Shown here piece by piece: positions 3,001 through 9,000 of a stretch of DNA of 64,000 bases (the first letter of the stretch is position 1; every line of letters begins with the position of its first letter). The stretch covers positions 31,242,470 to 31,306,469 of the forward strand of contig NC_088295.1 in the NCBI RefSeq assembly GCF_032854445.1, read 5' to 3'. This stretch comes from Liolophura sinensis (Eukaryota; Mollusca; Polyplacophora; Chitonida; Chitonidae). Both the position numbers and the translations under genes were made by a program. The notes beneath the pieces are model-generated. The model ran no database searches, was not told where the DNA came from, and worked only from the letters and a program-made list of their open reading frames with translations.

Positions 3001-6000
3001 GACCATTCTCGAGTGAAGCTCCTGCCATTAGATGATGAAGATGGCTCCGATTACATCAATGCTAATTACATTCCTGTAAGTCTGAGACATACACAAGCAC
3101 ATGGTTATGATAATGGCTTTGTTATGCTTTATTTATTTATATATTTATTTCATTGGTGTTTTACACAGTACTCAACAATATTTCACTTATACAACGGCAA
3201 CCAGCATTGTTTTGGGAGGAAACCAGGCAGAACCTGGGGAAAACCCACAAGCACAACCATCTACAGGTCACTGACAGACATTCCAGTGGCATTTAGGCTG
3301 CCCAGGTTATAGACAGTGTTGTCAAGATATAGCCTTCATAGTGATTTAAACTTGAAAGAAAGAGAATAAAATCATCATATCTTCACATTTTCTTGTGCAT
3401 TGGTTAATATGCATGAAGTTTATGGTTCAGGTTGAAAAAAAGTTAGTCCCTGTACTAGGCCAAAATAATACTGAAGGCATACATGTACTAATACCATGCC
3501 AAAGGAGTATTTAACTGTTCATTTGTTCATGACTTTGTTTCTCACTAGGGTTACAATTCCAAGCGAGAGTACATCGCATCCCAGGGTCCTCTACCTGGGA
3601 CTAAGGATGACTTCTGGAGGATGATCTGGGAACAAAATGTCTCTCTCATCGTCATGGTTACCAAGTGCATGGAGGGTCGGGGTAGGGTAAGAGAAATCAT
3701 TATTTATGAAGTTTAAGTTAATGACTTAAAAACTCAGAAAGATATGTGTTGTTGGTTAAATGGTTTTTTATACAAAAATCTGTTAAAGAAAATAACACAG
3801 TAAACATGATAACTTACTAAGCCTATGTAGAGAAAACAAATAAACATAATAGCTTAGACATCTTTCAAAGTCCATGTCATCTTGCAATCTGGGCCCTGCT
3901 AAGACAATGGCATATATTAAAGATACATGTACTAGGATGTCAAAACATTTTGTCACAGAGAAAAAAAGTTCAAAAGCAAATTCACATACAGTCAACAGAC
4001 GTTCATGTTGTAACTGAAGGTACAGAACCTTATTTGTGTGATTTATTTTACCATTTCACTTTGTTTTCTCAGGTAAAATGTGAGCAGTATTGGCCAAATG
4101 ATGATGAGCCTGTTTATTTTGGAGAACTGATAGTTCAGAGACGCTCTGAGTCTATACTGCCAGAGTATGATATCAGGATTCTGGATATCAAACTGGTCAG
4201 TGATCAGCTGCATGTGACACAAGTTTTTTTATGCAGGTTCTTGAAACACTGGAATAGCTGGTAGAGAGATTTTTGTACAGGCTTTATGTGTCTGACAATC
4301 CATTTCATTTAATTGAATAAAATATTACGTAAAAATGGTCGTGGGTTTCCTCTGAGTTCTGCCTGGTTTCCTCTGAGTTCTGCCTGGTTTCCTCTCGCTA
4401 TGATGCTAACCGCAGTCTTATAAGTAAACTGTTCTTGAGAACGGCGTAAAACATCAATCAAATTAACAAATATTGCACAAAAAAGATACTGTAAATGTCA
4501 CTTGATTGTGCAATTAATGTTTCATAAAGTTTGTTTTTGTTTTGTGCATTTTCTTTTAGGGGCAAATATGTATCTTTTTGGTGCTGAAACTCACATTTTT
4601 ATAGTAGGATACCTTCCTTTCAGACATAATTTATAACTTTTTCCTAAGATCACAATCAGGAAAAATGAGGAACAGTTCATGGTCATTTACAAGTAGTGAA
4701 TTAACAATTAAATTTTACACTTTGCCCAGTGTGAACCATAAGGTGGTACAAAAGGTGGAGAAGACGGTTAAATTACAGTAATTAATTACTGTGGTTTAGC
4801 GGATGAAATCATACACTACATGTTGAGACCTGATGAAGCTATGTTTATAGTGTGTTGAATGCGTTTATTTGATAATGAGAATTCCCTTGACTGACCTCCT
4901 TTTGTCAATGATGGTTATTATGTTATAGGGAGAATCCAAAAAGAGAACAGTGAAACACTTCCACTTTTTAAAGTGGCCTGACTTTGGTTGTCCGACGAGT
5001 ACAAAGTCCCTTGTGAACTTTGTCTGGGCTGTGCAGTCCCACCGGTCCCCAGTCTTGAGAGGACCAGACTTAGTTCACTGCAGGTAGTCCCGTCTGCATG
5101 TTGGTGGGAACAAACAGTTCCACCTAGTTTTTCAGTACAGGCTACTAACACATTGAGCACCTGTTCTTTACATACGCTGGTCTCTGCCAGTAATAGCATG
5201 CATGCATGGACGTTTGCATACCAAATGTTTTCTTCAGTTCTGCTTGATCCATGATTCCTTGTTTCTTTTTACTTGCATGAACATTTGAAATTGCCTGCTA
5301 GTCAGGAGTGCTTCTTAATGCAAAGTCTCCTAGCAGTACTTTTTGCATGGTGCGAATGGCATTAACTTGTGATATAATATTAGTGGCACATTTAGAAGGA
5401 TTGACCCTGACATAGTCTAACATTGGAAGATAACACACCTGTACACAGCATGAAGTTAGTGTGAAAATCACAACATTAGATGGAAGAGAAAGATGGGGTA
5501 GGGTGTAGATAATTAAGGATATTTTGTTTATGTACAATAGTGTGAAATAGCACATTTCCGCTAACAGATAGACAGTTACTTCACACAGTTTATTATCAGT
5601 ATCACACTTGTTAAGTTGTTATAAAGTTTTAAAGCATCACACATTCCACTATTAATTATAATACTTATATTACTGTTATTACAGGCTTTTAAACCTTAAA
5701 TAACCTGTTTCAATTAGACAAAACCTAAATCTTTGAAAACAAAACATGAATATTTTTTGAAGGACTGGTGGAGGGGAGGCACATGGAAGCGACCATTTTT
5801 TTCAGTTCATGAGCAAGCCATTCCATGTCTGAAAAAACAATAACACTGTGGTTAAGCATTATTCCATAGAGTCATTGCAGAATATTAGTTCTTTAAATGT
5901 GTTAGTTCTGATGATGCTAGAGCCATTGATGTAATTCTTGTATGACATTTGTTGATGAGTGCTGTGAATATTACTTCTGGTGACCTCTTCTAGTCAGTTT

Positions 6001-9000
6001 CACTAGACATTTCAGTGTTGAAGAAAATGTAATTGCAGAATAGTTCTCACTTGACTCTGAAAATATGTTCTTCTGTATATTGGCTATAAAGAGCAGACCA
6101 GGCGTCACTTTCGCAAAAGTGTAAGTCATGTTTCTTCTGATTTTATTTGTGAAAGACATTGTCTGTGTTGTAGCGCCACATGGCGATGTCATTTACAAGA
6201 AAAGATCTGAAAACTTGATTTACAAAGTTTTGTGAAAGCAGGCCCAGGTATTCCAAAAATTAAAAGAATTAGTGTAGTGGCTGGTTCACATTTATGCATT
6301 TAATACAGCAATAATCCAACAAAGATAGTCCCATCTGATTGCTAATGGCCTGATACTGATCACCTGCTAATTACCAACTCACCTGTCTGTATAACATCCC
6401 TCCAGGGCACAGTCACTCACACTGTCAGACAGTGTCACATGAAGATCTGGCCTGACTTTGGCTGCCCCCAGTCCCCTCAGGATCTACTCACCTTCCACAG
6501 GGCAGTGCGTAAGGTCTGTCCCCGCAGCATGAATGCCCCGCCCATCCTGGTACATTGCAGGTACAGCTATGTTCACACCTACATCTAAAATGTTGTTCCC
6601 CATTTTGAAGCTCTGTTGAAATATACATGATTATACATGAATATATGATTTGTTGTAGTTGGTTATCAGTTATAATTAGGTATTTAAATGTACAAGCAGT
6701 CAAGCTTATCTGTGGTACATGGGAAGGTCTTCCAGCAATCTGTGGATGGCAGTGGGTTTCCCCAAGCCCAACCCGGTTTCCTACCACAGTAATATTCGTA
6801 TAAATGAAACTATGTTGAGTACGGCGTAAAACACCAATCAAGTAAATAAATATATATAAAATCCTATTTTAGCACCTCTGTTGGGGCCATCATGACTATT
6901 GGTGAAGAGATAAATGTTATCAGTTACACATGAACTCCATGTTCATCCCTTCCAACACACGTTCATTTTTTTGCCAGTGCTGGAGTAGGTAGGACTGGTA
7001 CGTACATTGCTGTGGATTGTCTGCTACAGCAGATGAGAGACCATCAAGAAATAGACATCTTTGGTCGGGTACTGGAGATGAGAGAACACCGCTCACACAT
7101 GGTTCAGACAGAGGTAAATATAGGCTGTATAGAAGTCACACATGGTTCAGACAGAGGTAAATATAGGCTCTATATGGCAGTCACACAAGGTTCAGGCAGA
7201 GAGACAAATATAGACACTGTATAGGAGTCACACAAGGTTTAGACAGAGAGACAAATATAGACACTGTATAGGAGTCACACATGGTTCAGACAGAGAGACA
7301 AATATAGACACTGTATAGCAGTCACACATGGTTCAGACAGAGGTAAATATAGGCACTGTATAGCAGTCACACAAGGTTCAGACAGAGACAAATATAGGCA
7401 CTGTATAGCTGTCACGCATGGTTCAGACAGAGGTAAATGTAGGCACTGTATAGCATTCACACATGATTCAGACAGAGCTAAATATAGGCACTGTATAGCT
7501 GTCACACATGGTTGAGACAGGTAAATTGTAGGCACTGTATAGCAATCACACATGGTTCAGACAGAGGTAAATATAGGCACTGTATAGCAGTCACACATGG
7601 TTCAGACAGAGGTAAATAAAGGCACTGTATAGCAGTCACACATGGTTCAGACAGGTAAATTGTAGGCACTGTATAGCAGTCACACATGGTTCAGACAGAG
7701 GTAAACATAGACACTGTTTAGCAATCACACGTGATTCAGACAGAGGTAAATATAGACACTGTTTAGCAGTCACACATTGTTCAGAGAGAGGTAGATATAG
7801 GCACTGTTTAGCAATCACACATGGTTCAGACAGAGGTAATTGTGGACACTATATAGCAGTCTATCTGTATGATCACTATGTATTAAAGTGGTGTCACATC
7901 TGTCTGACCACTGTGTATAATAATGGTGTCACATCTGTCTGACCACTGTGTATAAAAATGGTGTCACATCTATCTGTAGGATCAGTACGTCTACATCCAT
8001 GACTGTGCTGTGGATGCATACAACACCCTGCAGGCACAGGGGGAGGAGAACATTGGATATGAGGAAGAGGAGAGTAAGTTACCTGCATGTAAAATTTCTT
8101 ATTTTCTTATCACAACGTCATGTGTAGTGTGGCCAGTCATGGTTAGATTTGTTTATTTATTTATTTATGCATTTCATAGTCTGCTAAGAAATACTTTTGT
8201 CTGCATACCCCCTCGATTGTTTATTGTTAATAGTGCTATCTCATCATTTTACATGAAGCCAAGCACAGACATCAGTAATTTTTCAGACTCACTGAATGAT
8301 GTAGTACTTACCTCAGTACTTATAGTAGCACTTATGATGTCAAACTTACCTCATACCCACACTAAAAATACAAGATATTTTTTATGCCCTTCTGGGTTGA
8401 ATCAGGAAGATTGAAGTTGTGCTTACAGACGACAGTGTAATAGTTTCCTGGATGATTTCAATGCTCATGAGCAGGTCATGTGATTCATCAAAATGGCTCT
8501 TGACAGCAAATGCCGGTACTGCCAAAGTTCTAGCAATCATTGTAACCACAAGGAAGCGGGTTAATTAGATTCATTGGTGAGAAAGATTATCTAGGAATGA
8601 GCATCTAGGTGATTTAGATTGCCCGTGAGTGGGAAGGAGATGGTGGCTTGAAATCTGCGCCATTTTTCTTATGAGGCGGCGATGGACACTGTGTTATGAA
8701 AATAGCACACTGACTCCATCTAGTTGGACTATGAGTGATGAGGAAAATTCACAAGACACTGCTGGCAAGAGTTGCTGAAAATGAAAAATGTTTTATTTTG
8801 AACAACACCTTGTTTTGGTATGTGATTCCCTGAAGTATGTCAAAAAACAATATACGGGTTCAACCATATCTCAGACTTCAGATGTCAGATTTTCCCCTGA
8901 TCCCAGACCTCAGATGTCAGATTTTCGCCAGATCCCAGACCTCAGAATCCCTTGCTCTCATGGGCTTGTGAATAACTTGCCAAAGCTCAGTGGTTTACAC

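Follow-up and report, generated by a model that had tools for sequence, protein, structure and literature searches.

A candidate pair of alternatively spliced WPD-loop exons in a receptor tyrosine phosphatase gene of the chiton Liolophura sinensis

Introduction

Why should a single receptor tyrosine phosphatase gene carry two exons for the same stretch of its catalytic domain? The question is raised by a 64,000-nt stretch of the genome of the chiton Liolophura sinensis (contig NC_088295.1, here C1, positions 31,242,470 to 31,306,469; hereafter the window), in which two neighbouring exons of a plus-strand gene, exon A and exon B, each encode the WPD loop and the approach to the catalytic cysteine of a protein tyrosine phosphatase (PTP) domain. 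Judging from the sequence, we propose, with a probability of about 0.62, that A and B arose by tandem duplication and are spliced in a mutually exclusive manner into the transcripts of an R3-like receptor tyrosine phosphatase. The genome scanned here comprises 609,464,459 bases; the 609-Mb Liolophura assembly is the subject of PMC11068029, whose Table 1 includes RNA samples from digestive gland, foot, gill, gonad and heart, and its species name has been corrected from L. japonica to L. sinensis (PMC12441733).

Two exons and their splice products

Exon A occupies positions 4929..5083 of the window and exon B positions 6406..6560, both on the plus strand, and an intron of 1,322 nt (5084..6405, plus strand) lies between them. 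Each exon is 155 nt long, is bounded by an AG acceptor and a GT donor, is entered in phase 0 and is left as HC|AG; exon A reads GESKK...LVHC plus AG, exon B reads GTVTH...LVHC plus AG, and WPDFGCP is found in both. An earlier inspection of the DNA letters made without database searches (the sequence-only reading) had reported this geometry, and all of it was confirmed when the lengths, phases, motifs and coordinates were re-read from the sequence.

Splice products were computed in a script from exons A and B together with the eight common catalytic exons (441-522 to 9410-9465). The A-only and the B-only product each contain an open frame of 316 aa, and both isoform domains match Pfam Y_phosphatase in full, with 276.5 bits (A) and 272.2 bits (B). 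The product with both exons meets a stop 12 residues past the HC of A, in the shifted frame, and the product without either exon stops after CWSR, which bears out the earlier claim that the frame forbids including both or neither. In the mechanism that we propose, the spliceosome would join exon 4073-4195 to A or to B, and then to exon 6978-7113, and we infer that both choices are used; because double inclusion and double skipping lead to an early stop, only the single-exon products would make enzyme.

Constraint on the two exons

Aligned over 45 codons, the two exons agree at 20 residues and at 54% of their nucleotides, with identities of 60, 62 and 40% at the three codon positions. When 10,000 unconstrained simulations were run to the same nucleotide identity (one-gap alignment), the observed residue identity was reached at a frequency of 0.0004 (4/10,000), the codon-position pattern at 0.018 and the absence of stops at 0.15. 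The protein likeness of the two exons is beyond neutral drift, and the earlier view of an exon duplication that swaps the flanks of the loop at the protein level is supported. These simulations, together with the PTP matches of exon B in the genome scan (best E 1.3e-5), rule out that B is a chance open frame. Against 13 hand-chosen homologs, A averages 49% identity and B averages 42%, compared with 38-82% for seven other exons, so that neither exon looks long dead.

The same constraint bears on the idea that the second exon is mainly a regulated off-switch, which would lower the amount of receptor through double inclusion and a premature stop. The stop that the A+B product meets 12 residues into the shifted frame would suit such a device, but a pure poison exon needs no constraint on its protein, and constraint is what the A/B identity pattern shows; we regard an off-switch as highly improbable.

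Rarity of the pair within the genome

Genome scans with exon A and exon B gave 63 and 50 matches, respectively, at E <= 1, which merge into 64 places, some of them weak or partial. Two pairs among these places lie less than 20 kb apart: A and B (1,489 bp) and two exons on contig C7 (14283359 and 14287399; 4,040 bp). The C7 pair encloses further catalytic exons (14284351 and 14286649) and looks like the D1 and D2 domains of a two-domain receptor. Among the 64 places, found by a scan that strongly diverged second exons could escape, A/B is the only pair within 20 kb that has no other catalytic exons between its members. An intronless two-domain gene on C13 stands outside the 64 places.

The WPD segment could be read in 38 of 40 fetched cases, and 35 of these end in HC|AG followed by GT. 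By best acceptor, the 35 exons measure 149 nt (14 exons), 152 nt (14), 155 nt (5) or 146 nt (2), near-copies of one gene being counted separately. The exact length of 155 nt is not as remarkable as it looks, as other WPD exons have the same boundaries and span 146-155 nt; equal length and phase are inherited from the family, and what stands out is therefore the doubling. A reading of A and B as the two domains of one receptor is ruled out, since tblastn with the catalytic domain finds no PTP exon remnant in 5084-6405. The idea that B is what remains of a tandem duplication extending beyond the exon was rejected as well: when 4700-5400 is compared with 6150-6900, the strongest nucleotide match covers 20 nt at the WPD motif (E 0.001), and the remaining ones have E values of 0.22 or more.

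Which exon the annotated protein contains

The gene has a public annotated protein, P0121 (Liolophura sinensis, 2301 aa, titled 'phosphatidylinositol phosphatase PTPRQ-like'). The B-only product occurs in P0121 letter for letter, and the A-only product is absent from it. P0121 was the sole candidate in a search with the 51 residues of B (proteins of ~967-3078 aa) and ranked first when the complete catalytic domain served as query (proteins of ~1266-4027 aa). The best 120 of the 7,967 hits of the latter search include no second form of the gene and no A form; nor does an A form of the gene appear in the best 120 listed among candidates of 174-553 aa, proteins of 554-1265 aa not having been searched for A. 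The 90% cluster of P0121 has one member, and the database seems to know only the B form. The proposal that one gene makes two receptors is thus supported in part: B belongs to an annotated protein, and A is absent from the proteins listed at 174-553 and ~1266-4027 aa. The doubt that the sequence-only reading had attached to B is thereby reversed, and it is A that has no annotation support. No second B-like form was seen in other species among the matches listed by the protein searches, and among 372 protein segments there were 0 pairs with a differing WPD segment and identical 30 residues after the catalytic Cys.

Several observations weigh against mutually exclusive use of the pair. Since the single protein form of the gene in the database is B, A may be unused. 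Departures from the family, represented by 174 homolog segments, are seen in both exons: in A the third residue ahead of the His of His-Cys is Asp, which occurs there in 0/174 segments; in B the strand before WPD carries Cys (0.6%), Met (0%) and Lys (0.6%) in place of the Phe, Phe/Tyr and Thr/Leu usual in the family, and the common Gly before the last strand gives way to Pro (0%). The splice sites of the two exons are weak yet no outliers, each outscoring 4-6 of 23 others in the gene, and no convincing docking/selector RNA pairing was found in 4196-6977, where the 7 inverted repeats of at least 14 nt are uninformative. Moreover, B finds its best genome-scan matches not in A but in two C7 exons (46%, E 1.3e-5), and B does not adjoin A on either of the trees described below.

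Some of these observations would be expected from the main rival explanation, an exon switch-over in which B has taken the place of A, leaving A as an intact-looking fossil that went out of use recently. The B-only annotation, the private Asp before the catalytic Cys and the below-median splice sites of A all fit such a retirement. However, A is open, its Pfam score is slightly above that of B, and it is closer than B to 9/10 of the lophotrochozoan homologs compared, the tenth being a tie (identity to Lottia is 31/50 for A and 23/50 for B); an exon so open and homolog-like could have been retired only recently, and we consider a switch-over possible, though unlikely. The opposite assignment would follow if the annotation were in error, the predictor having chosen B by chance, with A as the working exon and B as a duplicate rarely or never used. 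Most homologs do favour A, and several positions that the family keeps well have other residues in B; yet a homology-guided predictor should also favour A, so its choice of B hints at RNA support, and B is open and matches the family profile nearly as well as A. An annotation error strikes us as improbable.

Splicing signals

The splice sites of A and B were scored with a matrix built from 23 other sites of each kind in the same gene (leave-one-out, one doubtful first junction dropped), the junctions having been mapped in 26 segments that cover 1372/2301 residues of P0121 and resolve 25 junctions. The donor of A scores above 4/23 and that of B above 5/23 of the gene's sites, and the corresponding values for the acceptors are 6/23 and 4/23. 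When other WPD exons are taken for comparison, the donors exceed 2/37 (A) and 6/37 (B) and the acceptors 11/35 (A) and 4/35 (B). Such below-median sites are compatible with alternative use, without proving it. With its 1,322 nt, the A-B intron seems too long for steric exclusion, so that frame-based loss of the wrong products or a regulated choice of sites would be the more likely means.

A 45-bp minisatellite of 17 copies (window 7093-7861) resembles the 3' end and donor of exon 6978-7113. The 19-nt exon-end/donor sequence of this exon has 11 matches (at most 2 mismatches, true site included), and GT is kept in 9 of them; the copies would thus present decoy 5' splice sites downstream of the exon that receives A or B.

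Origin and age of exon B

The WPDFGCP motif of A and B occurs in 8/174 homolog segments and in 0/38 of the other WPD segments read in this genome. When the genome is scanned with B, A comes sixth, after B itself and others (43%, E 2.6e-4). On a tree whose backbone is provided by the rest of the domain, B, which fills 17% of the columns and is placed by its 51 residues alone, falls within the group of the gene's homologs (100/99), at its base and beside the spider Trichonephila (85/56); A falls within an 18-row set (85/89), whose rows of known origin are all lophotrochozoan. Forcing A and B together on this tree costs 3.4 log units (p-AU 0.073). An exon-only tree, built from 51 rows, places B together with segments of Trichonephila and Daphnia (97/83), and the forced union there costs 13.7 log units (p-AU 0.15, from few columns and with a bootstrap that had not settled). 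A younger duplication, with B changing faster afterwards, is rejected by neither tree test.

The likeness beyond neutral drift and the position within the homolog group indicate that B probably arose by duplication of an exon of this same gene, perhaps very long ago. That B is instead a piece of an unrelated PTP gene is disfavoured by the WPDFGCP that it has in common with A and by its placement in the homolog group; the dismissal is likely rather than proven, since the best match of B lies on C7.

A and B are equally near the outgroups compared (Trichonephila 25/50, Priapulus 21/50, Ptychodera 20/50). The closeness of A to the lophotrochozoans, the fact that B is no farther from the outgroups than A, and the basal position of B on the backbone tree would suit a splice switch that predates the lophotrochozoan radiation, that is, a natural, tissue-controlled choice between two loops differing at a proline hinge. 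The simple argument from closeness is countered by A being no nearer to bivalves than to the spider: its identity to bivalve homologs is 21-24/50, no higher than that to Trichonephila (25/50). We offer so ancient a switch only tentatively and think it doubtful.

P0125, a 2501-aa model from Daphnia sinensis, contains a PTP domain that reads WPDFGCP and another that reads WPDFGVP. On the exon-only tree, the WPD segments of both join exon B, but the rest of the two domains stands apart from the group of the chiton gene.

Predicted effect on the WPD loop

Exons A and B each carry the strand before WPD, the WPD loop with the general-acid Asp, the next helix and the strand leading to the catalytic Cys; common exons provide the Arg of the P-loop and the Gln of the Q-loop. 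Since the catalytic residues are kept in both, the A and B products should both be active. The PTP1B segment WPDFGVPESP comprises what we take to be residues 179-188. At the position that counting from WPD equates with PTP1B P188, A has Thr and B has Pro, and the 174 family segments have Pro in 44.8% and Thr in 24.1%.

Passages of PMC8031367 name E186, S187 and P188 of PTP1B, describe P188 as a probable helix-breaker that keeps the loop from hyper-opening, report two loop exchange processes instead of one in the P188A mutant, and propose proline-flanked hinge points for a loop motion ~50-fold slower in PTP1B than in YopH. According to the text of a later correction (PMC11027752) the conclusions stand, and PMC11058592 links WPD-loop motion to turnover in the PTP family. 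As the Thr/Pro difference between the two exons sits at this helix-breaker hinge, A and B are predicted, by analogy with PTP1B, to differ in loop motion: the loop of A, with Thr, may be more mobile and possibly hyper-opening, and that of B, with Pro, more hinged and slower, which would give the same receptor a different turnover through one loop or the other. The sequence-only reading had likewise suggested that the two forms may differ in rate or substrate choice. If this is true, animals can tune the rate of a phosphatase by splicing, and the gene provides a natural enzyme pair, identical save for a 51-residue segment, for testing the PTP1B/YopH proline-hinge idea.

Receptor architecture and gene structure

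The 5' end of the window falls within the gene, and other exons lie further upstream; in the 80 kb upstream of the window, open frames resembling FN3 domains were picked by eye, as was a hydrophobic segment that resembles a transmembrane one. In P0121, Pfam detects fn3 in 8 stretches of the ectodomain (388.7 bits) and a single Y_phosphatase stretch (2031-2263 of 2301), and the top hydrophobic windows point to one strong stretch at ~1927-1945 in addition to a signal-like N terminus. P0121 thus combines FN3 domains with a single transmembrane segment and a single PTP domain, an R3-like architecture that supports the receptor foreseen from the DNA alone.

PTPRQ has WPE instead of WPD; as both exons of the chiton gene read WPD, the PTPRQ label of P0121 is not to be taken literally. 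The best single-domain solved chain among those listed is PTPRB (2h02), with 332.0 bits for A and 326.0 bits for B, and D1 of the LAR-type chain 4bpc scores 244.5 (A) and 241.3 bits (B); two-domain LAR-type chains head the list of solved chains when scores are summed. Our trees, which held no LAR-type rows, place the gene with molluscan, annelid and spider PTPRO/Ptp10D-like proteins.

All common catalytic exons are on the plus strand. Those at 441..522 (PIKLSELE...), 1356..1446 (KNRY loop), 2999..3075 (DYINANYIP) and 3549..3686 (ending ...GRGR) are followed by exon 4073..4195 (VKCEQYWP...DIKL), which ends in phase 0 before the A/B choice. After it come exon 6978..7113, with the remaining P-loop (SAGVGRTG) up to HMVQTE, exon 7980..8073 (DQYVYIHDC...) and the last coding exon, 9410..9465, which contains the C-terminal tail, shared with P0121, and the stop. 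Within this tail, IYENM is presumably similar to a Grb2-type pYxN site.

A 41-bp minisatellite of 27 copies (window 1867-2968) takes up most of the intron that precedes exon 2999-3075. Upstream of the window, between two ectodomain exons of the gene (C1:31230147-31231755), there are open frames with what we take to be a zinc-knuckle-like motif and retroelement-like sequence. Elsewhere within the window, an array of near-identical 27-bp units (11435-12134; 20.3 copies with 98% match in 11435-11982, running on to 12134) has long open frames on both strands, and a minus-strand open frame of 334 aa (14842-15846) has no Pfam match; its C-terminal part presumably resembles a TIGAR-type histidine phosphatase.

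Comparison with known systems

Mutually exclusive exons in the catalytic regions of kinases include exons 6a/6b of JNK and exons 9/10 of PKM; an exon 6a is mentioned in PMC7259801, a paper on jnk1a splicing. As in the chiton gene, the alternative exons of these pairs lie inside the catalytic domain of an enzyme; JNK and PKM are kinases, whereas the chiton gene encodes a phosphatase and its swapped segment itself contains two catalytic residues. Measured against tandem mutually exclusive exons in general, the chiton pair shows adjacency, homology, equal phases and exclusion by frame, and is known from the genome and from one annotated form (B).

The R3 receptors PTPRB, PTPRJ, PTPRO, PTPRH and Ptp10D have the same FN3 ectodomain, one transmembrane segment and single catalytic domain, but no duplicated WPD exon was found described for them in the open-licence PMC literature, whereas the chiton gene has one. 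Among the papers listed from that literature, no title or abstract opening describes an exon pair of this kind for a tyrosine phosphatase, in agreement with the sequence-only reading, which knew of no R3 phosphatase so arranged; the papers listed do include some on other phosphatase splice variants, such as PMC11215419 and PMC5354644. The tandem duplicated exon substitutions of the human set in PMC9741552 are likewise adjacent homologous exons, used one at a time, with core residues kept and function finely adjusted; its main text contains neither 'phosphatase' nor 'PTPR', whereas the chiton pair swaps the general-acid loop of a phosphatase. A further parallel is offered by the WPD-loop chimeras of PTP1B and YopH described in PMC8031367 and PMC11058592, in which loops were swapped in the laboratory; in the chiton receptor, the swap would be made by splicing.

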